This document shows positions 7,760 to 18,626 of a stretch of 64,000 nucleotides of DNA, piece by piece (position 1 is the stretch's first letter; every line of letters starts with the position of its first letter). The notes under the pieces were generated by a model. The model was not told the DNA's origin. It saw nothing but the letters and a program-made list of their open reading frames with translations, and did no database searches. The DNA comes from Rhodobiaceae bacterium. Lineage in GTDB: Bacteria > Pseudomonadota > Alphaproteobacteria > Parvibaculales > Parvibaculaceae. The stretch lies in NCBI GenBank assembly GCA_003330885.1, contig CP030277.1, positions 1,054,001 to 1,118,000 of the forward strand. The letters run 5' to 3'. Made by a program: the position numbers and the translations under genes.

Positions 7760-8746
7760 TTATCCTGCTGCCTGAAGGAGCTTGCTTTCCCATCGATAGG
7801 CATCTCTTACGATTTCGTCCAGATCGTCATGCTCTGGCTTCCATCCAAGAACCCGTTGTGCAAGGTCAGCGTCTGCAACAATCTCGGCAGGGTCTCCAGC
7901 GCGTCTTGCGTCCAACCGGGCTTCAATTTTCTTTCCAGCGACGCGTTCAACAGCTTCGATGACCTGCTTGACGCTTGATCCGTGCCCATACCCGCAATTG
8001 GCAGTTAGGCTGTCACCCCCTGATCGGAGGTACTTCACAGCAGCTTCATGTGCAGAGATCAAATCGCTAACGTGGATGTAGTCGCGGACGCCGGTGCCAT
8101 CCATAGTCGCGTAGTCATCACCGAAAATTTTCATATGGTCTCGAATGCCAAGAGCTGCCTGAACAGCCACCTTGATAAGGTGCGTTGCATCTTTGGTGGA
8201 TTGGCCCGAACGCCCTGCTGGATCAGCACCGGCAACATTGAAGTATCGCAATACAACATAATTGAGCTCGTGAGCCGCGGACACGTCCTGCAACATCCAC
8301 TCGCTCATTAGTTTTGAGCGTCCGTAAGGGGACATGGGGTTCAGCTGAACATCTTCTGTTACAGGCACCTGCTCAGGCGAGCCGTAAACCGCCGCAGTCG
8401 ACGAAAAGACAAAGCGTGGAACATTCTCTGTCACACAACACTCGATAAGGCTGCGGGTCTTAGCCGTGTTATTGGCATAGTACTTGAGCGGATCGGCGAC
8501 GGACTCAGGCACCACAATCGATCCAGCAAAATGCACGACATCAGTGATATTCTTGCGGTTGATCGTTGAACGAACGAGTTCAGCGTCTCCAATATCCCCT
8601 TCGACGAGTTCAGCGCGGGCATCAACCGCCGTTCTGAGGCCTGTAGACAAATTATCTAGGACTGTGACGTCTTCACCGGCATCAGCGAGTGCCAATACCA
8701 TGTGGCTGCCAATATAGCCCGCCCCGCCCGTAACTAGAACGCTCAT
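7760..8746 (-). CDS. galE: UDP-glucose 4-epimerase
   Basis: This 328-residue extended SDR interconverts UDP-glucose and UDP-galactose in the cytoplasm. It shows the NAD motif VTGGAGYIGSHMVLAL at the very N-terminus, the catalytic Ser in VFSSTAAVYGSPE and the YGRSK (YxxxK) motif, and the substrate region ILRYFNVAGADP-like VLRYFNVAGADPAGRSG. The ATG at 8746 is chosen because GGAGG lies 7 bases upstream and the NAD motif follows at once; a longer frame to 9019 would overlap the kinase gene. It sits between the APS kinase fusion and the 4,6-dehydratase, all on one strand, which fits a surface polysaccharide locus. Confidence 0.96.
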   Translation of the reverse strand: MSVLVTGGAGYIGSHMVLALADAGEDVTVLDNLSTGLRTAVDARAELVEGDIGDAELVRSTINRKNITDVVHFAGSIVVPESVADPLKYYANNTAKTRSLIECCVTENVPRFVFSSTAAVYGSPEQVPVTEDVQLNPMSPYGRSKLMSEWMLQDVSAAHELNYVVLRYFNVAGADPAGRSGQSTKDATHLIKVAVQAALGIRDHMKIFGDDYATMDGTGVRDYIHVSDLISAHEAAVKYLRSGGDSLTANCGYGHGSSVKQVIEAVERVAGKKIEARLDARRAGDPAEIVADADLAQRVLGWKPEHDDLDEIVRDAYRWESKLLQAAG

Positions 8747-8777
8747 GCATCCCTCCTGGTCTAAACCCTTTGTATGG

Positions 8778-10442
8778 TTATACCCGGAAGTTCCTATCCA
8801 CGTAATTAACGAGTTTCTCAACACAGGCTTCGATGGTTTCAGCGCCCGTATCCACCACCAATTCTGGTGCGTCAGGTGCCTCGTACGGGGCGGAGATGCC
8901 GGTGAATTCAGGTATCTCTCCCTTGAGGGCCCGCTCATAGAGCCCCTTTGGATCGCGACCGATACAGGTCTCAATGTCCGCTTTGATATAAACTTCGTGA
9001 AAGGAGGAATAGGCGGCATGTCGCGCCCGATCTCGATCAGATCTGTAGGGTGAGATGAACGAAGAGATTACGATAACACCGGCTTGACGAAAGAGTGCGG
9101 CTACCTCCCCTACCCGCCGGATGTTCTCTGAACGGTCATCAGGTGAGAAGCCCAGATTTGACGTAAGACCTTGTCGAACATTGTCTCCATCTAACACGAA
9201 GACTTGGTAACCTTTCTCAAAGAGACGCGCTTCCAATGCAACCGCTAGTGTCGACTTGCCAGCACCAGACAGGCCTGTGAACCAAAGAACCCCACCTTCA
9301 TGACCATTTCTCGCGGAACGGTCGGATTCTCCAACTGAAAATTCAATAGGTGTTGTGTTGATCGCCTTTGACGCAAACAAATGCCGCTGGTCTGCGTAAC
9401 CCTCCATAGAGATATAGCCCGTAGCAAGCAGACCGGAACCTTCACTTGGTTCTAGAAGACTGACCCCCGCCGCAAACGGCAAATTTCCAATGTGATCAAG
9501 TGCGATGACCTTGTCGACGCGCACAACGATTTCAACGAGGGCGCCATTGGCGATTTCCGTGTCGTGCGCGGTCTTGAAGGTCGAGGGTGACAGGATCTGC
9601 TCAACAGACTGAATCGCGCCTTGCGTCCGGCCATAAGACGTTTCGACCAACACCCGGTCACCCTGTGTCCGCTGGTCGGCGTACCAAATTGCCTTAATCC
9701 TGAAGACATCTGTCTCAATCGGTGGCTCTTCCTGATGTGAGACAACTTCACCGGGCTCTGCAAAGTGCGGTGTGTCGAATGTGAGCTGCAACACTCCCTT
9801 CTCTGTTTCTTCAACGCTTGCCACCACGCTTCGTTGGTTGGAGGGTGAGCACAAGATCTCATCGCCCGTGCCAATAGCGCCGGAGATCGTGGCTCCGGTG
9901 ACGATCCACCCTCCGTCATCGTTCGTGGAAGAGATGACTTTCATGCGTAGCGGAGGCGATGTTGAGGCCACAGACGATGTCCGTAGTGTGTCTAGAGAAC
10001 CTTCGTCTTGCCACCATGGAGTGAGATCGGGCCGTCCTAGTGGCAGCGGGCCAAAAAATGAGGGCACAAGATTTGCCGCGGACAGGACGTCTTTAAATTC
10101 TTCTTGGACCAGCTCAAACTGCTCCTGCTCATACCCGATCAGAGCCATGTTAGCGACGAGCACAACAGGTGCCGTGAGATCCAGGAACTTCACCAGCCGC
10201 GCAAAGTGCCTGTCCTGATCGCCAATACCTTCTGTGGCATCAAGAATGATTATGGGGGTTACATGCGCTGGCGATGAACATGGCGTGCGAAACCATTGGT
10301 CCGCGTCGAATGCCTGAGCCGCCGCAAAACCCATCTGTGCTGTAGCACTGGCAATATGCTCAGGATCGCCTCTTTCGCCACCTAAGACCACGCACTGCCC
10401 GTTCGTGGTGCCGCGATTGGAATGTAGAGCTGCGCTTACCAC
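8778..10442 (-). CDS. CysN-like degenerate GTPase fused to APS kinase (CysC)
   Basis: This 554-residue protein is built like NodQ/CysNC but with a shortened, altered GTPase half. The C-terminal domain (about 383-554) is an intact adenylylsulfate kinase: Walker A GLSGAGKST at 390-398, DGDNVRQGL, and FISPYRSDRDRAR. Upstream lie recognisable CysN beta-barrel domains (about 165-350). The N-terminal 160 residues retain the CysN landmarks ILDATEGIGDQ and VGY-like IGYEQEQF, but no P-loop is present and NKMD is replaced by NMAL at 98-101. GTP hydrolysis is therefore unlikely, and no cysD is nearby. It may act as an APS kinase supplying PAPS for sulfation of surface sugars (inference). The start is GTG and uncertain. 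Confidence 0.85.
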   Translation of the reverse strand: MVSAALHSNRGTTNGQCVVLGGERGDPEHIASATAQMGFAAAQAFDADQWFRTPCSSPAHVTPIIILDATEGIGDQDRHFARLVKFLDLTAPVVLVANMALIGYEQEQFELVQEEFKDVLSAANLVPSFFGPLPLGRPDLTPWWQDEGSLDTLRTSSVASTSPPLRMKVISSTNDDGGWIVTGATISGAIGTGDEILCSPSNQRSVVASVEETEKGVLQLTFDTPHFAEPGEVVSHQEEPPIETDVFRIKAIWYADQRTQGDRVLVETSYGRTQGAIQSVEQILSPSTFKTAHDTEIANGALVEIVVRVDKVIALDHIGNLPFAAGVSLLEPSEGSGLLATGYISMEGYADQRHLFASKAINTTPIEFSVGESDRSARNGHEGGVLWFTGLSGAGKSTLAVALEARLFEKGYQVFVLDGDNVRQGLTSNLGFSPDDRSENIRRVGEVAALFRQAGVIVISSFISPYRSDRDRARHAAYSSFHEVYIKADIETCIGRDPKGLYERALKGEIPEFTGISAPYEAPDAPELVVDTGAETIEACVEKLVNYVDRNFRV

Positions 10443-11727: not shown

Positions 11728-12945
11728 CTAGCCCGCAAGGCGATCAACTGTTTCACTACTGAGCGGCGAGCGCGTGTCGCATGTTGCTGCCAAATGCATT
11801 CCCGACGAATGATGAGCGATCCGATAGCTGTATTTCGGTCCATCGAAATTGAGCGCAGTTTCAAGCTCCCGGTCTGTGACGCCGTCACGGCGCTCGATCG
11901 TTGGGTAATACCGGTCGAAGAGCAGATTAAGCGCGATCCCCATCCCATGGTCTGCTGACTTGATGAACTTTCCGTCCACATCATCGGCACCGATCATTTC
12001 CAGAGAGGCGTCAAAGCCTAGGTCGCGAAGCATTTCTGCCTGATGGTGTTTGAGGCCAGGAGATGACACAGCGTCGTTTGTCGAATGGATCATCCGGAAC
12101 TGGCATTTTCGAGATGCAGCTGCGGCAACTGTTTGCATGTGAACGTCATAGGCGGTATCTCGGATGAGAGACCGGTCCGGTCCGAAGAAAGTTGGCAACC
12201 CGGGATTTGAAAACTGCCACTTTTGTTGTGTCGAGCAGGTGTAGATCAGGTTTCCGTCTGTGATATTGGCTTCTTTCCAACCACCGTCGATGAAAGCCGT
12301 TGCCGTTTCAGTATAGGCGGAGGCATCAATTATACCGTTGAAGCTATTGGGCGCTAACTTGTGCATCATGTGAGCGATATACCCACCGTGTGAGGAGCCG
12401 ACACAGAGCACATTTGATTTGTCGAAATGCAGATCAGAGTCGGAAAGCGCATTCAACGCACAAAGATGATCCATCGCCGACAGCAGGCCAAAGTTTTGAT
12501 ATTGGTTGTCTGGTGGATTAAGCACAGTTTTAATCGCAAACTGCATTGGCGCAGCAGCTCTCAACATTTCCAAGATGTCCGCATGAGTTTCTAGTTTGCG
12601 ATCAATCTGGCCACCGGAAATGACATAGCGGCTAACGGCATCGAGTAAGGATTCTCCCTCTATCTCTAAGCCGACTTCGCCAAATTCCGTTGATCGCGCT
12701 GGGCGGCAGGTATTGCAATGCCCGTCGACAGAGACTGCAATGAGATTGTATTTGGCGGCGATATAACGACGGAGCATTGCAGAATAGTCAGCGTCCTTTT
12801 CTCCGCCCATGCCCGGGATGATAAAGACGAGACCGTCGGCTATATCCGCGTCGGGAACCTCAGCGATAACAGCCACTGGCTTCTTTCGCTCGGTCCGAAG
12901 TTCGAAATCCGGCTGTCCCTCAATTTCAAACCTACGCGATGTCAC
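11728..12945 (-). CDS. DUF2920-like alpha/beta hydrolase (copy 1)
   Basis: This 405-residue protein has an alpha/beta hydrolase layout: oxyanion-region strand VFIIPGMGG (about 41-48), nucleophile elbow GSSHGG with Ser185, an acid in HSTNDAV, and His in ADHGMGIAL. It resembles the DUF2920 family known from Campylobacter flagellar glycosylation loci; that assignment is from memory. A conserved HCNTCRP motif (Cys77, Cys80) is shared with a second copy at 16196-17410. It starts with GTG overlapping the ACP stop by 4 bases and is the third gene of a fatty-acyl-AMP ligase/ACP/hydrolase operon, so it probably acts on the ACP-bound acyl group as a thioesterase or acyltransferase (inference). Confidence 0.7.
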   Translation of the reverse strand: MTSRRFEIEGQPDFELRTERKKPVAVIAEVPDADIADGLVFIIPGMGGEKDADYSAMLRRYIAAKYNLIAVSVDGHCNTCRPARSTEFGEVGLEIEGESLLDAVSRYVISGGQIDRKLETHADILEMLRAAAPMQFAIKTVLNPPDNQYQNFGLLSAMDHLCALNALSDSDLHFDKSNVLCVGSSHGGYIAHMMHKLAPNSFNGIIDASAYTETATAFIDGGWKEANITDGNLIYTCSTQQKWQFSNPGLPTFFGPDRSLIRDTAYDVHMQTVAAAASRKCQFRMIHSTNDAVSSPGLKHHQAEMLRDLGFDASLEMIGADDVDGKFIKSADHGMGIALNLLFDRYYPTIERRDGVTDRELETALNFDGPKYSYRIAHHSSGMHLAATCDTRSPLSSETVDRLAG

Positions 12946-13208
12946 GCGGGTGTTCTTTCATTTGGCGCCAGGGCTTCATCAGCGAGCGAAACGAGATCGC
13001 CAATACAGTCCAGATCAAACAGTTTTTCGCCTGGAAACCGGATGCTGAGTTTGTCTTCCAAGCTCATAATTAGGCGGGCATGGGCGAGAGAATCCCATCC
13101 ATCCACATCCTCGGCCGTTGTTGTAGCGCTGAGATCGGACTCAAGGCAGCCCAGTTCAGCTGCGATGACTGAGCAAACCCTTCCAAATGTCTCATTGGTC
13201 GATGTCAT
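12942..13208 (-). CDS. Acyl carrier protein
   Basis: This 88-residue acidic, helical protein carries the phosphopantetheine attachment motif GWDSLAHARL with Ser40. Lengths before and after the motif fit a stand-alone ACP. It overlaps the ligase stop by 4 bases upstream and the hydrolase start by 4 bases downstream, so all three are translationally coupled. It is not in a fatty acid synthesis cluster and is therefore probably a dedicated carrier that receives the acyl group from the neighbouring AMP ligase. A phosphopantetheinyl transferase is not in the window. Confidence 0.92.
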   Translation of the reverse strand: MTSTNETFGRVCSVIAAELGCLESDLSATTTAEDVDGWDSLAHARLIMSLEDKLSIRFPGEKLFDLDCIGDLVSLADEALAPNERTPA

Positions 13209-14899
13209 GTAAGGCCTTCTTCCAGTGCGGGAGAGTTGTATTTGTTCGCTGTTGCTTCACGGCTGATCTTGCCGCTTGTACTTTTGATCAACCACATGGG
13301 TGCGAATAGATGGATAGAAGACGGAACCAGTCCCGTCTCATCCAGCATTCTGTCGCGAATGTTCTTCTTGATTGTTTTCAGAGCTGCAGTGTCAGTCTCT
13401 CGTGTTTCAGCGAGGACAATCAAAACATCGCTACCCAGGTCTTCGCGATACTCGGAGAATGCAATCACACGTCCGGGAACGATGCCCGATGTATCGCGCA
13501 ATGAAAATTCAAGATCATGCGCATAATGATTTCGCCCGTTTAAAATCAGGAGATCGTCAATACGACCAGTGACAAACAATTCACCGTTGGACAGGTATCC
13601 AAGATCGCGTGTGTGGTACCAGCCTTCCCGAAAAACCCGGCTCGACTTTTCTGGTTGCCGATCATAACCACGGGCAAGGCACGGGCCGCTGACGCAGATT
13701 TCCCCGATCCGGCGATCTGGCAGACGGTTCCCTTCTTCATCCATTATCAGGACTGTGATCTGCTCTATAGGCTTCCCGCAGGACAACACTGAGCTCGTTG
13801 TCGCATGGGTGTCGAGCGTCGGGCGTGCGACGCCTTCATCGATGAGGGCTTGAGTATCGATTGTCTCTGTCCGCGGCGCAGTGCCCGGCTCACTCTGGGT
13901 CACTGCAAACACGGTTTCTGCCATGGCATAGCAGGTATGCAGAGCAGATTTTCTGACACCCATAGGTCCAAATTTGGAGGCAAATTGATCGAGCGTTTCT
14001 GGGCGGCACCGTTCTGAACAATCGACGAAAGCTCGAACTGATGAGAGGTCCCAATCGTCATCCGGTCGGACGCAATTGATCAGATGCTGGAATGCGAAGT
14101 TTGGCTGCCAAACAAGCGTCGCTTTTGTGCGCTCTATCAGGTCGAACAATTGGGTTGGACGCATCGTCCATTCAAATGGACTGATCATGGTGACCGGAAC
14201 GCCGGTTAACAAAGGCAACAGGCAGCATGCGATGAGGCCCATGTCATGATAAAGCGGCAGCCAGCTAATAATATGGTCATCTTCACTTAGACCCAGACGC
14301 CTCGCATATGCATCAACCTGATGCAGAAGCGCAGCATGCGAAATCATGACGCCCTTCTTCGTACCTGTAGTTCCTGAACTGTGCTGCAGGAAGGCGACAT
14401 CCTGTGATGAGGTATCAGGTATCGGCAATTTGGAAGCGGTTGGAAGATCTTCTTCCGTGACCGCAGCGATGTCATGGCCTGTTGGGAAGCTGTTGAGCTC
14501 CGTTTTGAGTTTTGGAGTCGTGAACAAGAGTTGGGCGCGAATACGCTCCATGACTTCACGATGCCCGCGCCAGAAGTGCGCAGGATCTTGTCTGGGACTG
14601 GGAGGGGCCAGAATAGTGGGCACGGCTCCGGCGAACATCGCACCAAAAAAGGCGTAGAGAAGATCAGGCCCCTGCTCTTTCAGCACCACGACTCTGTCGC
14701 CGGGAGCAAGGTTTGCCTGCGCACAAGCCGCTGCGTAGGGCGCAGCACCCTCTGCAAGGCGTCGATAGCTAATCGAGTGCGTCGCATCACCTATATGAAC
14801 ACGGGCGTACAGTCGGTCTGGTGTTTGCTCCAGGCGTTCAAGAATACGCTGCGAGACTGTATCTCGTTCGTATTTCTTCCAGAATGACAGCAACGACAT
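13205..14899 (-). CDS. Fatty-acyl-AMP ligase (FAAL-like AMP-dependent synthetase)
   Basis: This 564-residue adenylate-forming enzyme shows the phosphate-binding motif LQHSSGTTGTKKGV (171-184), the FAAL-typical WLPLYHDMGLI (213-223), YHTRDLGY, and TGRIDDLLILNGRNHYAHDLE. It ends with the catalytic-lysine region STSGKISR. Enzymes with this signature activate fatty acids as acyl-AMP and pass them to a carrier protein rather than to CoA; the ACP gene overlapping its end supports that use. The ATG at 14899 is the first gene start of the cassette. Its substrate chain cannot be read from sequence. Confidence 0.9.
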   Translation of the reverse strand: MSLLSFWKKYERDTVSQRILERLEQTPDRLYARVHIGDATHSISYRRLAEGAAPYAAACAQANLAPGDRVVVLKEQGPDLLYAFFGAMFAGAVPTILAPPSPRQDPAHFWRGHREVMERIRAQLLFTTPKLKTELNSFPTGHDIAAVTEEDLPTASKLPIPDTSSQDVAFLQHSSGTTGTKKGVMISHAALLHQVDAYARRLGLSEDDHIISWLPLYHDMGLIACCLLPLLTGVPVTMISPFEWTMRPTQLFDLIERTKATLVWQPNFAFQHLINCVRPDDDWDLSSVRAFVDCSERCRPETLDQFASKFGPMGVRKSALHTCYAMAETVFAVTQSEPGTAPRTETIDTQALIDEGVARPTLDTHATTSSVLSCGKPIEQITVLIMDEEGNRLPDRRIGEICVSGPCLARGYDRQPEKSSRVFREGWYHTRDLGYLSNGELFVTGRIDDLLILNGRNHYAHDLEFSLRDTSGIVPGRVIAFSEYREDLGSDVLIVLAETRETDTAALKTIKKNIRDRMLDETGLVPSSIHLFAPMWLIKSTSGKISREATANKYNSPALEEGLT

Positions 14900-14985: not shown

Positions 14986-15939
14986 TTACCTGGGACGCCT
15001 ACGAGGTGGTCGACCAAACCCGTCGCTGCGTCTTGGCTCGTCGGGACCAGCGCGCCTGGCCCTCTCCGCCAGACCTGCAATGGAAGTCGGGTCTCCCTTG
15101 AAGCAGGATAGCGTGTACGGATAATCAGGGGTTGCGTGATAGTGGTAGATCGTCTGCATCTCACCATCGACCATGACCTGCCCCACATGCCCATGACATT
15201 CGTCCAGGTCACCGCTTGTAAGCAAGGCTCCACCTTCCCCGTAATAGCCATAGATGGCGAAGCCATCGAGAGCGTACCCGATGAGGGTGGAATGTTCGGT
15301 TGCCGGGCCCAGGTCGTTCTGGCAAGGGCTTTTGCCATGGTAATGATAGAGGCCACTTCGCTGGGGATGGCCCTGACAATTATCCAGAATTTCGTGCGCC
15401 AGCGCATTTTCACCCCGCGCATCAAGAGCGTTGAACAGGACGGCACCGGTCAACATGATCCCTATGGCGCCCATCGGCAGGCATGATGGACGCTCCGCGT
15501 TTGCTGGGTTCGTTGGCAAGGAGACGGAGAAAGCGTGTGCGCGGATCGTATTGGGATTGCGATCATAATAATAGGCGTCATCAGAGCGCGAGACCGGGAA
15601 CTGGCCGGTCGGATGATCCGGCAACGCATTGCCGGTTATCAAACGATGTTTCCCCGAAACCACGATTTCGAGTTCTGAGAGGTGAACAACATTCCCATCG
15701 ACAGTGGGTTTTCGGGTGAGATCGAATGTCCCGGCTATTTCGTTAAGCCAATCTCCTGACCGCTGGGCGCCGGGCGCATTTGGATTGAAACGGGTCTGGC
15801 AGGCAAAGATCGATCCGGCGCGCGGCTCACTGGAGACCCTGCCATCACTGAGAGGCAGCGACGTGAGATCTACTGTATGTGCGGCGGCATTCGAAGCGAG
15901 CAGAAGAAGGATGGTCGAGAGGGAGAAAAAGGCGCGCAT
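14986..15939 (-). CDS. YHYH-domain exported protein
   Basis: This 317-residue protein has a cleavable signal (MRAFFSLSTILLLLASNAAA) and the defining YHYH repeats of its family: GLYHYHGKSPC near 200 and TIYHYHATPDYPY near 270, between which lies YALDGFAIYGYYG. Domains of this kind are found in secreted or periplasmic proteins of unknown function; the paired His residues suggest metal binding (inference). The C-terminus is Arg/Pro-rich. It is 86 bases upstream of the ligase on the same strand and could be the head of that operon, although no shared role is evident. Confidence 0.8.
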   Translation of the reverse strand: MRAFFSLSTILLLLASNAAAHTVDLTSLPLSDGRVSSEPRAGSIFACQTRFNPNAPGAQRSGDWLNEIAGTFDLTRKPTVDGNVVHLSELEIVVSGKHRLITGNALPDHPTGQFPVSRSDDAYYYDRNPNTIRAHAFSVSLPTNPANAERPSCLPMGAIGIMLTGAVLFNALDARGENALAHEILDNCQGHPQRSGLYHYHGKSPCQNDLGPATEHSTLIGYALDGFAIYGYYGEGGALLTSGDLDECHGHVGQVMVDGEMQTIYHYHATPDYPYTLSCFKGDPTSIAGLAERARRAGPDEPRRSDGFGRPPRRRPR

Positions 15940-16041: not shown

Positions 16042-16117
16042 TGGTGAGCCCTGCAGGATTCGAACCTGCGACCTACTGATTAAAAGTCAGCCGCTCTACC
16101 AACTGAGCTAAGGGCCC
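16042..16117 (-). tRNA. tRNA-Lys (UUU)
   Basis: The minus strand gives a full cloverleaf of 76 bases: acceptor GGGCCCU pairing with AGGGCUC (one G-U), D-arm AGCTCAGTTGGTAGAGC, anticodon stem CTGAC/ATCAG-type with loop CTTTTAA, T-arm GCAGGTTCGAATCCTGC, discriminator A and an encoded CCA. The anticodon is UUU, reading lysine codons. Five T residues follow the CCA directly and probably end transcription. Confidence 0.97.
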
Positions 16118-16195: not shown

Positions 16196-17410
16196 TTATG
16201 CAGATAATGCGTCACTTTTCGCTGGTTCATGTGAATTGGCCGAGATGCTCGCAATTACGCCGGACTGACCGTGGTCAACCACGTAATTGGTGCGATTTCC
16301 TGCGAAACAAAGCCTGGTTTTCAGGTCCCGGTCCGTTTGAGCAGGCTTCCTGATGAGCGAGGGATAAAAACGGTCGAAAAGACTATGAAGTCCGATGCCC
16401 AACCCATGTTCCAGCGTCGTAATGATCCTTCCGTCAACATCTGCTTGGTCTATGACTTCGAGGTCAGCGTCGAAGCCCCTGCTTCTTAGAAGATTGGTCT
16501 GGTCGTGCTTCAGGCCGATGTTAACGAGCCGGTCGCGGCAGGAGTGAACCATGCGGAATTGCGTCTTTCTTGAGCCGATGACTCCGAGCGTCGTTTCCAG
16601 ATGATCAGGATCGCAGACATTGCGGATGCGGGCCTGGTCGCTACCGAAATAGTTCGGAGCCCCGATATTCTCGTTGCTCCATGCAGTTTTCGTAGAACAG
16701 ACGAACTCGATGTTCCCATCGATAGCTCTGTACTCCACGCCGCCAAAGCCAAGATACGCTGGAAGCGTCTCCGGATAGGCAGATGATTCAAGAACTGCTG
16801 AAATCGTGTTTGGCGCGAATTTTTGCATCAGATGGGCAATGTAGCCACCGTGAGATGTTCCCGCCGCGATGATGTTGCCCTGATCAAACTCGACACCATC
16901 ATCAATCAGCTTGTTCAGGACCAAAAGATGGTCCAATGCGGCAAGGACGCCGAAATTTTGATAATCCTCGCCAGGTGGAATGAGTGCGGCTGACAGCGAA
17001 AATTTGTGGTCCTTACGGGACTTCAGAAATCTAAGCGCGTCTTTTTCTTCCGCGGAACGCAGGCCGTCCAAGCTGTCTCCCTGCAGGACCAGTGCGCCGA
17101 TCACTTTGGCGATGGACCATGGATCAATTTCGATCGAGACGGCGACACCAGGCATGGACTGCTTTGGCCGACAGAAGTGGCAATGTGCGCGAACAGAAAC
17201 AACCACCAAATTGTATTTCGCAGCAATCTGTCGTCGTGTCAGGCGGGTATAGGCTTCGTCCGTATCTTCACCGAAACCTGGGATAAGGAAGACAAGCCCA
17301 TCAGCCGCACCTTCGTCTGGTATCTCAGCCTCAAAAGTCACAGGGATCTTTCGCGGAATACCGAGCTCGAAGTCTTCATGTCCACTTAAGCTGCCTGAAA
17401 TGCTTGGCAT
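16196..17410 (-). CDS. DUF2920-like alpha/beta hydrolase (copy 2)
   Basis: This is a 404-residue paralogue of the hydrolase at 11728-12945. The ATG at 17410 was chosen over a GTG at 17452 because it aligns the N-termini exactly: 16 residues lead to DFEL in both copies. It keeps the nucleophile elbow GTSHGG (Ser186), an Asp in HSCRDRL, the His in LEHGLGIGL and the HCHFCRP motif with Cys77 and Cys80, the same positions as in copy 1. It lies upstream of tRNA-Lys, without its own ligase or ACP. Sharing the carrier made by the neighbouring cassette is an inference. Confidence 0.7.
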   Translation of the reverse strand: MPSISGSLSGHEDFELGIPRKIPVTFEAEIPDEGAADGLVFLIPGFGEDTDEAYTRLTRRQIAAKYNLVVVSVRAHCHFCRPKQSMPGVAVSIEIDPWSIAKVIGALVLQGDSLDGLRSAEEKDALRFLKSRKDHKFSLSAALIPPGEDYQNFGVLAALDHLLVLNKLIDDGVEFDQGNIIAAGTSHGGYIAHLMQKFAPNTISAVLESSAYPETLPAYLGFGGVEYRAIDGNIEFVCSTKTAWSNENIGAPNYFGSDQARIRNVCDPDHLETTLGVIGSRKTQFRMVHSCRDRLVNIGLKHDQTNLLRSRGFDADLEVIDQADVDGRIITTLEHGLGIGLHSLFDRFYPSLIRKPAQTDRDLKTRLCFAGNRTNYVVDHGQSGVIASISANSHEPAKSDALSA

Positions 17411-17486
17411 AATGGGTCCCAGTGTAGAGAAATCAGTAAACTGATTTGGCACTCACATGGTAAACACAGCCTTAACGCACATGCAT

Positions 17487-18626
17487 TCAGAGCGGCGACA
17501 GATCCCCAGCCGCCTGCGCTGCCTTAAAGCCGGAGATAAAGGAACTGAATTCTCCGGCAGCAATGGCTCCCCGAAGATCTGCCATCAGGGACTGGTAATA
17601 GGCAATATTGTTCCAGGAAAGCAGCATCATTCCGAGGATTTCACCGTTTTTAAGAAGATGATGCAGATAGGCGCGGGAGTAATCCCGGGCAGCCGGACAA
17701 GAGCTTGTCTCGTCTAGTGGGCGGGGATCATTCGCGTGCCGGGCATTTTTAAGATTAACTTTGCCGAACCGGGTAAAGGCCTGTCCGTGCCTGCCTGAGC
17801 GGGTCGGCATCACACAATCGAACATATCGATCCCCCGTGAGACAGCTTCTACTAGGTCATCCGGGGTGCCAACGCCCATGAGGTAACGTGGTCGGTCTTT
17901 GGGCAGCATGGGGGTAGTGAAGTCGAGCACACGAAGCATTTCTTCCTGGCCCTCACCGACTGCAAGACCTCCAATTGCGTACCCGTCAAAGCCGATCTCC
18001 TGCAATGCAGAGGCACTTGTTTGACGCAGATCCTCATAAACGCTTCCCTGCACGATCCCGAACAAAGCCTGCCCTTCCTTTCTGTGCATCTGCGCCCTGA
18101 AGGCGTCCTTTGAGCGCTGCGCCCAGCGCGTTGAAAGTTGCATGGAATGATTGGCTTCTTCGTGGGTGGCTGGAAACGGTGTGCACTCATCCAGCACCAT
18201 CTGAATGTCAGCGCCCAGGAGGCACTGAATTTCAATGCTGCGTTCTGGTGATAGTTCGTAGGAAGAGCCATCAATATGGCTCTGAAAGGTGACCGCCTCC
18301 TCGCTCATCTTCCGAAGCTTGGAGAGAGACATGACCTGAAAGCCACCGCTATCGGTGAGAATGGGTCCCTGCCAGTTCATGAAGGAATGAAGGCCTCCAA
18401 GCGCGGCAACTTCTTCAGCGCCCGGACGCAACATGAGGTGGTAAGTATTCCCAAGCACTATGTCCGCGCCGGTCTCTTTCACCTGATCTGTGTAAAGCGC
18501 TTTGACCGTACCAGCAGTGCCCACCGGCATGAAGGCGGGGGTTTGAATGTCGCCACGTGGCGTGTGGATGACACCGCGCCGCGCAGCGCCATCTTCAGCC
18601 AACAGGTCATACGTAAAAGAGCTCAT
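17487..18626 (-). CDS. tgt: Queuine tRNA-ribosyltransferase (tRNA-guanine transglycosylase)
   Basis: This 379-residue TIM-barrel enzyme exchanges G34 for preQ1 in tRNAs with GUN anticodons. It shows [24 protein letters not shown] (base-recognition Asp), [12 protein letters not shown] and the nucleophile region [14 protein letters not shown]. The usual structural zinc site CxCxxC...H is reduced to [16 protein letters not shown]: only the second Cys and the His region remain. The length and all catalytic motifs are otherwise normal. Only 5 bases separate it from queA, which acts next in queuosine synthesis. Confidence 0.96.

Follow-up and report, generated by a model that had tools for sequence, protein, structure and literature searches.

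What might a fatty acyl-AMP ligase (FAAL), a stand-alone acyl carrier protein (ACP) and an alpha/beta hydrolase of the DUF2920 family do together? This question is raised by three tightly packed genes in a 64,000-nucleotide stretch of an alphaproteobacterial genome (Rhodobiaceae bacterium, contig CP030277.1, positions 1,054,001 to 1,118,000 of the forward strand; hereafter the window), which belongs to a single-contig assembly of 3.86 Mb and to a genus of which we examined 7 genomes. All three genes lie on the minus strand (ligase, 13205-14899, 564 aa; ACP, 12942-13208, 88 aa; hydrolase, here called DUF2920a, 11728-12945, 405 aa with a GTG start), and direct reading of the sequence places a 4-base overlap at both the FAAL/ACP and the ACP/DUF2920a junction. 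Our best reading is that this cassette is a variant of carrier-dependent acylation modules with DUF2920 in the position of the transferase, and we tentatively favor the view that it activates acyl groups and transfers them to a surface glycan. A first-pass annotation had already described genes overlapping by 4 bases per junction, a FAAL-type ligase with a stand-alone ACP, a hydrolase of the DUF2920 type and no ketosynthase or nonribosomal peptide synthetase (NRPS) nearby, and this description is borne out by the evidence presented here. Neither of the latter enzymes was found among the 27 other window proteins scanned with Pfam (30 in total, representing part of the open reading frames [ORFs]).

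The cassette is under purifying selection and not a chance arrangement. Its FAAL-ACP-DUF2920a order is kept in all 7 genomes of the genus (with DUF2920a read as two ORFs in G005), although protein identity with the window drops as low as 65% in the FAAL, 48% in the ACP and about 53% in DUF2920a. The FAAL and ACP genes overlap by exactly 4 bases in 6 of the 7 genomes and by 11 bases in G005, while the ACP/hydrolase junction is a 4-base overlap in the window and in G003, a 14-base overlap in G002 and, in G006, a gap of 13 bases; for the remaining three genomes, the longest hydrolase ORF starts inside the ACP gene, which leaves this junction unjudged. Compared to the nearest relative, G003, the ratio of nonsynonymous to synonymous substitution rates (dN/dS) is 0.063 for the FAAL, 0.050 for the ACP, 0.105 for DUF2920a and 0.077 for a second DUF2920 gene described below, whereas synonymous sites are saturated and the ratio is undefined against L020 and L023 for FAAL and ACP and against L023 for DUF2920a. 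Gene order in 7/7 genomes and dN/dS values of 0.05 to 0.11 thus mark the cassette as a real unit. Among 40 genomes of the family, DUF2920 and close relatives of the FAAL are confined to this genus: ligase matches at E <= 1e-40 occur in 9 of them, i.e., in the 7 genus members (66% to 100% identity) and in two others at 31% to 33%. A wider search of 146 genomes with PF11144 recovered the 7 genus genomes plus weak matches in 4 of the other 139 (18.7 to 25.7 bits, short, and none of them in the same family).

The ligase (AMP-binding Pfam domain, 209.8 bits) carries an SSGTTGTKKGV motif (position 174) and a C-terminal lysine motif (position 540), both invariant in the 7 FAALs of the genus, and its N-terminal domain contains the FAAL-specific insertion. 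The stretch between the YxxxE motif and the conserved glycine that follows it comprises, by our count, 52 residues in the window ligase and 51 in a Phenylobacterium FAAL, compared to 26 and 28 residues in a CoA ligase and a DltA-like Campylobacter ligase, respectively, so that the insertion adds about 25 residues beyond either of the latter. When a profile of the genus FAALs was searched against the PDB, the top match was 3kxw (273 bits), followed by three polyketide-synthase chains and then 3pbk (230 bits), and FadD32, FadD23 and FadD28 (141 to 201 bits) ranked ahead of the best CoA ligase, a 4-coumarate-CoA ligase at 125 bits. Chains not named as FAALs also stand among or above these matches (7r7e-g, polyketide synthase; 6ulx and 6ulw, amino acid adenylation; 4r0m, McyG). 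The window ligase aligns with 3kxw through the insertion region with a single gap; this entry is named Saframycin Mx1 synthetase B in the PDB, and we take it to be a Legionella FAAL. The insertion has been described as a hallmark of FAALs, and 3pbk as EcFAAL (PMC8460268). None of the named FAAL subfamily models among the 25 best NCBIfam models was passed (best NF006624, 359.9 bits at a cut-off of 600), and the window ligase therefore looks like a separate FAAL branch. It is not DltA-like either, scoring 156.8 bits against the TIGR01733 cut-off of 317.4.

The small protein encoded next to the ligase scores 31.7 bits for PP-binding (cut-off 20.8) and shows the attachment motif D39-S40 within GWDSLAH, with Ser40 invariant in the 7 genus sequences. 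Because the ligase is FAAL-like and the ACP dedicated, loading of the ACP with a fatty acid is the natural reading, and we consider it highly probable that this FAAL loads this ACP. FAALs are mostly known for priming polyketide synthase (PKS) or NRPS pathways, which is also the usual role of FAAL-ACP pairs (PMC11837247). Genome-wide, PF00550 detected two carrier domains at E <= 0.001, i.e., the window ACP and an 80-aa frame at G000:C1:692035 that is probably the housekeeping ACP, a count valid only at the sensitivity of this profile since it missed the divergent carrier of the Campylobacter locus L141. No PKS or NRPS carrier that could receive the acyl chain was found in this genome-wide PF00550 search; ketosynthases were not sought genome-wide. 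The acyl-ACP is thus probably used directly, with the overlapping DUF2920 gene encoding its obvious user, and we judge it likely that DUF2920 acts on acyl-ACP.

DUF2920a scores 204 bits for its family (cut-off 24.7), and its predicted catalytic triad S185-D291-H333 is conserved among 34 DUF2920 proteins from five phyla (S185 in 34/34, D291 in 33/34 and H333 in 33/34, with one X), S185 being the presumed nucleophile. An AlphaFold2 model with a mean pLDDT (predicted local distance difference test) of 91.6 finds its nearest solved folds in feruloyl and cinnamoyl esterases by Foldseek, and VIA neighbors are S9 acylaminoacyl peptidases (Z 18.8 to 21.0, root-mean-square deviation 3.0 to 4.3 Å over 218 to 250 residues among the 50 matches listed). 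As judged from the model, these neighbors would fit a working serine acyl-enzyme; a sequence search found no solved DUF2920 relative. The family has been called Campylobacter-specific (PMC11878206), but it is wider since our contig scan found 49 DUF2920 loci; the viral contigs, scanned once with the window DUF2920 protein, gave no match. Flagellar loci of Campylobacter contain multiple, phase-variable DUF2920 genes, yet we found no published function in the literature on the family, on Cj1305c and Cj1310c, on the neighboring Cj1307/Cj1308 or on amino-acid-activating enzymes linked to an ACP and flagella, a search that largely excluded subscription papers.

What speaks most for DUF2920 acting on an acyl group bound to a carrier is the situation in Campylobacter, where the trio recurs independently. 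Among the 23 genomes behind DUF2920 loci that we searched (18 Campylobacter; all 23 chosen for holding DUF2920), a ligase of the C. aviculae type is encoded in 10 at E <= 1e-30, all of them Campylobacter (10/18). A DUF2920 match lies within 4.2 kb of the ligase on the same contig in 8 of these 10, in all eight on the opposite strand; the weak cases among them are G160, G161 and G165, with pieces of 29 to 39 residues at contig ends, and G155 with its fragmentary ligase. G158 and G159 have no DUF2920 on the ligase contig, and the same is true for two further C. aviculae copies of the ligase. A C. aviculae-like carrier is encoded within 1.5 kb of the ligase in 9/10 genomes and was not found in G163, where contig ends are nearby. 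The C. aviculae ligase is of the DltA-like, amino-acid-adenylating type (TIGR01733, 321.5 bits at a cut-off of 317.4) and lacks the FAAL insertion. By sequence comparison, two distant lineages thus appear to have joined the same three functions while using different ligases and carriers, which suggests a concrete and testable role for DUF2920, namely acyl transfer from a carrier protein. Such a role, if true, would account for a class of sugar decorations on flagella and would predict fatty-acylated glycans in the alphaproteobacterial genus studied here. The link to flagellar glycosylation in Campylobacter that the first-pass annotation had pointed out therefore goes deeper than claimed, since ligase and carrier adjoin DUF2920 there as well. 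The same finding qualifies its proposal of an undescribed system: this still applies to the FAAL version and, as far as we could find, to any function, while the general trio of ligase, carrier and DUF2920 occurs in Campylobacter as well.

At 7 of 12 Campylobacter ligase loci, a GNAT or formyltransferase-like gene is found as well. GNAT genes lie beside the ligase in G161, G162 and at the second C. aviculae copy (there in two ORFs), and formyltransferase-like genes in G155, G158, G159, G161, G165 and at the same second copy. The loci that combine such genes with ligase and carrier (L141:4761-5486, L144:1585-2825, L146, L147, L148, L149 and L150) possibly encode an N-acyl-aminoacyl pathway on the carrier. 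Pseudaminic acid on the flagellin of C. jejuni 81-176 bears O-acetyl and N-acetylglutamine substituents at position 8, and Cj1305, Cj1306, Cj1310 and Cj0617 were described as a family without assigned function and with homopolymeric tracts (PMC3068675). Cj1305c, Cj1306 and Cj1310c are DUF2920 genes (PMC7099621), and an acyl carrier protein and pseudaminic acid genes flank DUF2920 in Campylobacter (PMC11878206). In principle, an N-acetylaminoacyl ester could be formed with just a ligase, an N-acetyltransferase and a carrier plus DUF2920 as the transferase, which would suit the N-acetylglutamine substituent.

Taken together, we propose that the FAAL would adenylate a fatty acid and, bypassing CoA, load it onto the phosphopantetheine arm attached to Ser40 of the ACP, as can be expected from its family. 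DUF2920 would then take the acyl group from the ACP onto S185, assisted by D291 and H333, and esterify a hydroxyl group of a surface glycan with it; on balance, we lean toward transfer rather than hydrolysis. The weakest step concerns the acceptor, which might be a nonulosonic acid of the legionaminic or pseudaminic type on flagellin or another surface glycan, a possibility that we entertain with some reservation. Its source would be a complete-looking operon at about 1.671-1.679 Mb of the same genome (L139:10804-18901) with a dehydratase, a DegT aminotransferase, a GNAT protein, a UDP-GlcNAc-2-epimerase family protein, a PIG-L deacetylase, NeuB, a CBS-containing nucleotidyltransferase and a cytidylyltransferase, which in our own reading of the Pfam content suggests a legionaminate-type pathway; the CBS-domain nucleotidyltransferase presumably resembles the Campylobacter PtmE type. 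Beyond this genus, DUF2920 is fused to the flagellar glycosyltransferase Maf in metagenome-assembled genomes named Sulfuricurvum, "bacterium" and Aliarcobacter (L045:9971-13195, L046:9992-13213 and L041:9953-11749, the last with part of Maf only), adjoins Maf in L033 and L048 and NeuB in L034 and L047, and lies behind NeuB and a Maf-like gene in L032 (Desulfurivibrio).

A bolder generalization, which we regard as doubtful, is that DUF2920 is a family of carrier-dependent O-acyl or O-aminoacyl transferases that esterify nonulosonic acids. In Campylobacter, ligase, GNAT or formyltransferase and DUF2920 would then place an N-acetylated or N-formylated amino acid from the carrier on the sugar, yielding N-acetylglutamine on flagellar pseudaminic acid, and the FAAL swapped in by the genus studied here would yield a lipidated sialic-acid-like sugar. 

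Several observations weigh against our proposal. The Campylobacter ligase is only 22% and the ACP 16% to 21% identical to their counterparts in the window, and none of the eight linked DUF2920 genes is encoded on the strand of the ligase. In most Campylobacter loci, ligase and DUF2920 may be mere members of one large flagellar locus. Conversely, the DUF2920-linked locus of C. aviculae, which has neither GNAT nor formyltransferase, is flanked by transporter genes and lepA, a location that argues against an exclusively flagellar role. The limited sensitivity of PF00550 also belongs here. The nonulosonic operon is about 600 kb away from the cassette and NeuB is encoded in 17/33 family members without DUF2920, both of which make the link to these sugars a weak one; and though NeuB is present in 7/7 genus genomes, these form a single clade, so that this co-occurrence is not strong evidence. 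The 1 to 4 DUF2920 neighbors scanned per locus in Phenylobacterium (L031), Ferrimonas, Methylophilales and Phycisphaeraceae are mostly unrelated to sugars or carriers (L031, with one CoA ligase and one glycoside hydrolase nearby, being the exception), and the family may therefore have wider roles. In both Phenylobacterium genomes, a FAAL with a nearby carrier is encoded on a different contig than DUF2920. The alpha/beta hydrolase fold itself is compatible with transferases and hydrolases alike. Finally, the FAAL-ACP-DUF2920 trio was found in one genus only: the first-pass annotation had proposed to look for the same three-gene order across genomes, and this order is kept within the genus, while none of the 44 loci outside it has both ligase and carrier by contig scan, a soft absence given that the ACP profile is narrow (it missed the C. 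aviculae carrier) and many loci extend less than 10 kb per side. Partial matches outside the genus are ligase-like genes in L031 (the CoA ligase) and L034 and a carrier beside DUF2920 in L072; a ligase-like match in L036 is spurious as it lies inside the DUF2920 frame. The Phenylobacterium FAAL-ACP pair (L103:5595-9845) passes NF006624 and has an epimerase/dehydratase-type gene and an aminotransferase alongside.

How the cassette came to its place can be read from five relatives (G007, G008, G012, G014 and G015), none of which has FAAL, ACP or DUF2920 genes in the stretch compared. G008 and G012 share the arrangement TPR-SPOR, GlmS, GlmU, WbpM, GalE and CysNC, followed after a short interval by SPOR, a gene of 222 aa (assigned to the carbonic anhydrase family in G008), tRNA-Lys, TGT and QueA; G014 has the sugar block minus WbpM, G015 has only parts of the sugar block, and G007 has none of it in its 19 kb. 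The tRNA-Lys gene lies near tgt in all five cassette-free relatives and is likely the insertion point, i.e., the cassette seems to have entered a pre-existing neighborhood beside this tRNA. We found neither a direct repeat of the tRNA end nor a clear shift in base composition, so insertion is inferred from the comparison of relatives only.

Among the alternative explanations, we find the release of the acyl group the least easy to dismiss, though still unlikely: DUF2920 would be a thioesterase or esterase that frees a trimmed or desaturated chain from the ACP, or else serve as a housekeeping esterase clearing mis-loaded ACP. This would suit its best structural neighbors, all of which are hydrolases, and an acyl-CoA-dehydrogenase-like gene between FAAL and DUF2920b in G006 would match tailoring of the chain on the carrier. 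However, ATP-costly activation would be futile unless the acyl group is modified, no modifying gene is constant in the genus, and the Maf fusions and NeuB proximity in other phyla point to sugars. We give still less credence to a pathway in which the acyl group is the lipid starter of a small metabolite or of a membrane lipid and DUF2920 catalyzes condensation or release, which would be in line with the usual priming role of FAAL-ACP pairs (PMC11837247). Against such a pathway stand the two PP-binding domains of the genome, one of them probably housekeeping, and the lack of a PKS or NRPS carrier in the PF00550 search, with the same limit regarding ketosynthases.

Similarly improbable is that the acceptor is a sugar produced by the WbpM-like dehydratase and GalE encoded next to the cassette, as the first-pass annotation had suggested. 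WbpM-like, GalE, GlmU and GlmS genes do lie within 9.5 kb of the cassette and stay near it in the genus wherever the stretch reaches, but the same block is in place without the cassette in G008 and G012, and an opposite-strand SPOR gene separates the two. Because this sugar neighborhood predates the cassette, proximity alone is no evidence of shared function; by this comparison, the WbpM/GalE sugar genes are probably bystanders, and the suggestion is not supported. It also appears quite improbable that FAAL-ACP and DUF2920 arrived together in one horizontal transfer and are neighbors by descent only. Restriction to a single genus and a location beside tRNA-Lys, a common type of landing site, would be expected in this case, but the 4-base overlaps, the order kept in 7/7 genomes despite considerable divergence, purifying selection and the fact that ligase, carrier and DUF2920 came together independently in Campylobacter argue otherwise.

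Carrier-dependent acyl transfer to a glycan thus remains our preferred reading, and several known systems share parts of it. The locus of the Campylobacter Cj0617 paralogous family resembles the window in its DUF2920 gene with adjoining AMP-forming ligase and carrier and in having multiple DUF2920 paralogues, but it differs in its DltA-like ligase without FAAL insertion, in opposite strands without such overlaps and in the GNAT or formyltransferase genes at 7/12 loci. Cj1307, presumably the neighboring ligase, and the acyl carrier protein Cj1308 lie in the flagellar glycosylation locus, whereas the window cassette seems to be an insertion beside tRNA-Lys. In the Dlt system, the ligase DltA loads the carrier DltC for D-alanylation of teichoic acid, and as in our proposal, delivery of the acyl group to a surface polymer falls to another protein; yet DltA is specific for an amino acid, transfer is performed by the membrane proteins DltB and DltD, and DUF2920 is not known to be involved. 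Natural-product pairs like JamA/JamB (PMC11837247) share the FAAL adjoining its own carrier and the FAAL-specific insertion; unlike these, the window has a DUF2920 partner, no PKS or NRPS carrier was found, and its ligase scores below the cut-offs of the named FAAL models among the 25 best. Carrier-linked acylation of flagellin sugars is known from the modified viosamine island of Pseudomonas syringae with VioS, VioR, VioB and an ACP (PMC3927599), and enterobacterial flagellin islands carry ACP, LuxE and CaiC, i.e., carrier and fatty-acid genes (PMC4875605). As in our proposal, an acyl carrier protein serves glycan decoration in these islands, but they have a synthase III and a reductase or LuxE/CaiC-type genes in a flagellar setting and the accessible texts do not name DUF2920, while in the window the FAAL would supply the acyl group.

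The immediate neighbors of the cassette in the window are tgt, queA, tRNA-Lys, SPOR, CysNC and GalE, and no flagellar genes were found among the 30 window proteins scanned. Upstream of the cassette follow a YHYH-domain gene (14986-15939, minus strand; Pfam YHYH, 83.8 bits), tRNA-Lys (TTT; 16042-16117, minus strand, detected by ARAGORN) and, beyond the tRNA, a second gene of the DUF2920 family immediately following tgt and queA (DUF2920b, 16196-17452, minus strand; 418 aa, 211 bits), so that the tRNA separates the DUF2920b/tgt side from the FAAL cassette. Both DUF2920b and the tRNA had been overlooked in the first-pass annotation. A whole-genome search for the family yielded exactly these two DUF2920 genes, and in the tree they form sister clades inside one well-supported genus clade, which suggests a gene duplication. 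DUF2920b is present in 5/7 genus genomes and absent from the single-contig G002, while contig ends preclude a judgment for G004. The gap to tgt is 34 bases in the window (16196-17487) and a 4-base overlap in G005, and DUF2920b may be co-transcribed with the queuosine genes tgt and queA. A functional link to queuosine was provisionally set aside since the site next to tgt is a tRNA-adjacent insertion. A scan for promoters and terminators gave fewer matches than the mean of shuffled sequences, and one "terminator" is part of the tRNA.

The YHYH gene is an optional, non-core neighbor found in 5/7 genus genomes and not in the stretches of G005 and G006. In G006, the acyl-CoA-dehydrogenase-like gene (L025:9446-10648, minus strand) lies between FAAL and DUF2920b, where five other genomes have YHYH. 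On the other side of the cassette, the window encodes an adenosine 5'-phosphosulfate (APS) kinase protein (8778-10442, minus strand) of 554 aa compared to 637 to 642 aa in G008, G012 and G014, with a shortened and weakly recognizable CysN-like front part. A gene of the 3'-phosphoadenosine 5'-phosphosulfate (PAPS) reductase family adjoins the APS-kinase gene in G008 and none was seen in the window; together with the shortened CysN-like part, this indicates that sulfate activation may be degenerate in the genus. The longest ORF of GalE (7760-9019, minus strand) overlaps the preceding gene, and translation probably begins about 85 codons inside this ORF because most relatives in the genus are shorter (328 to 334 aa, with 359 aa in G005).

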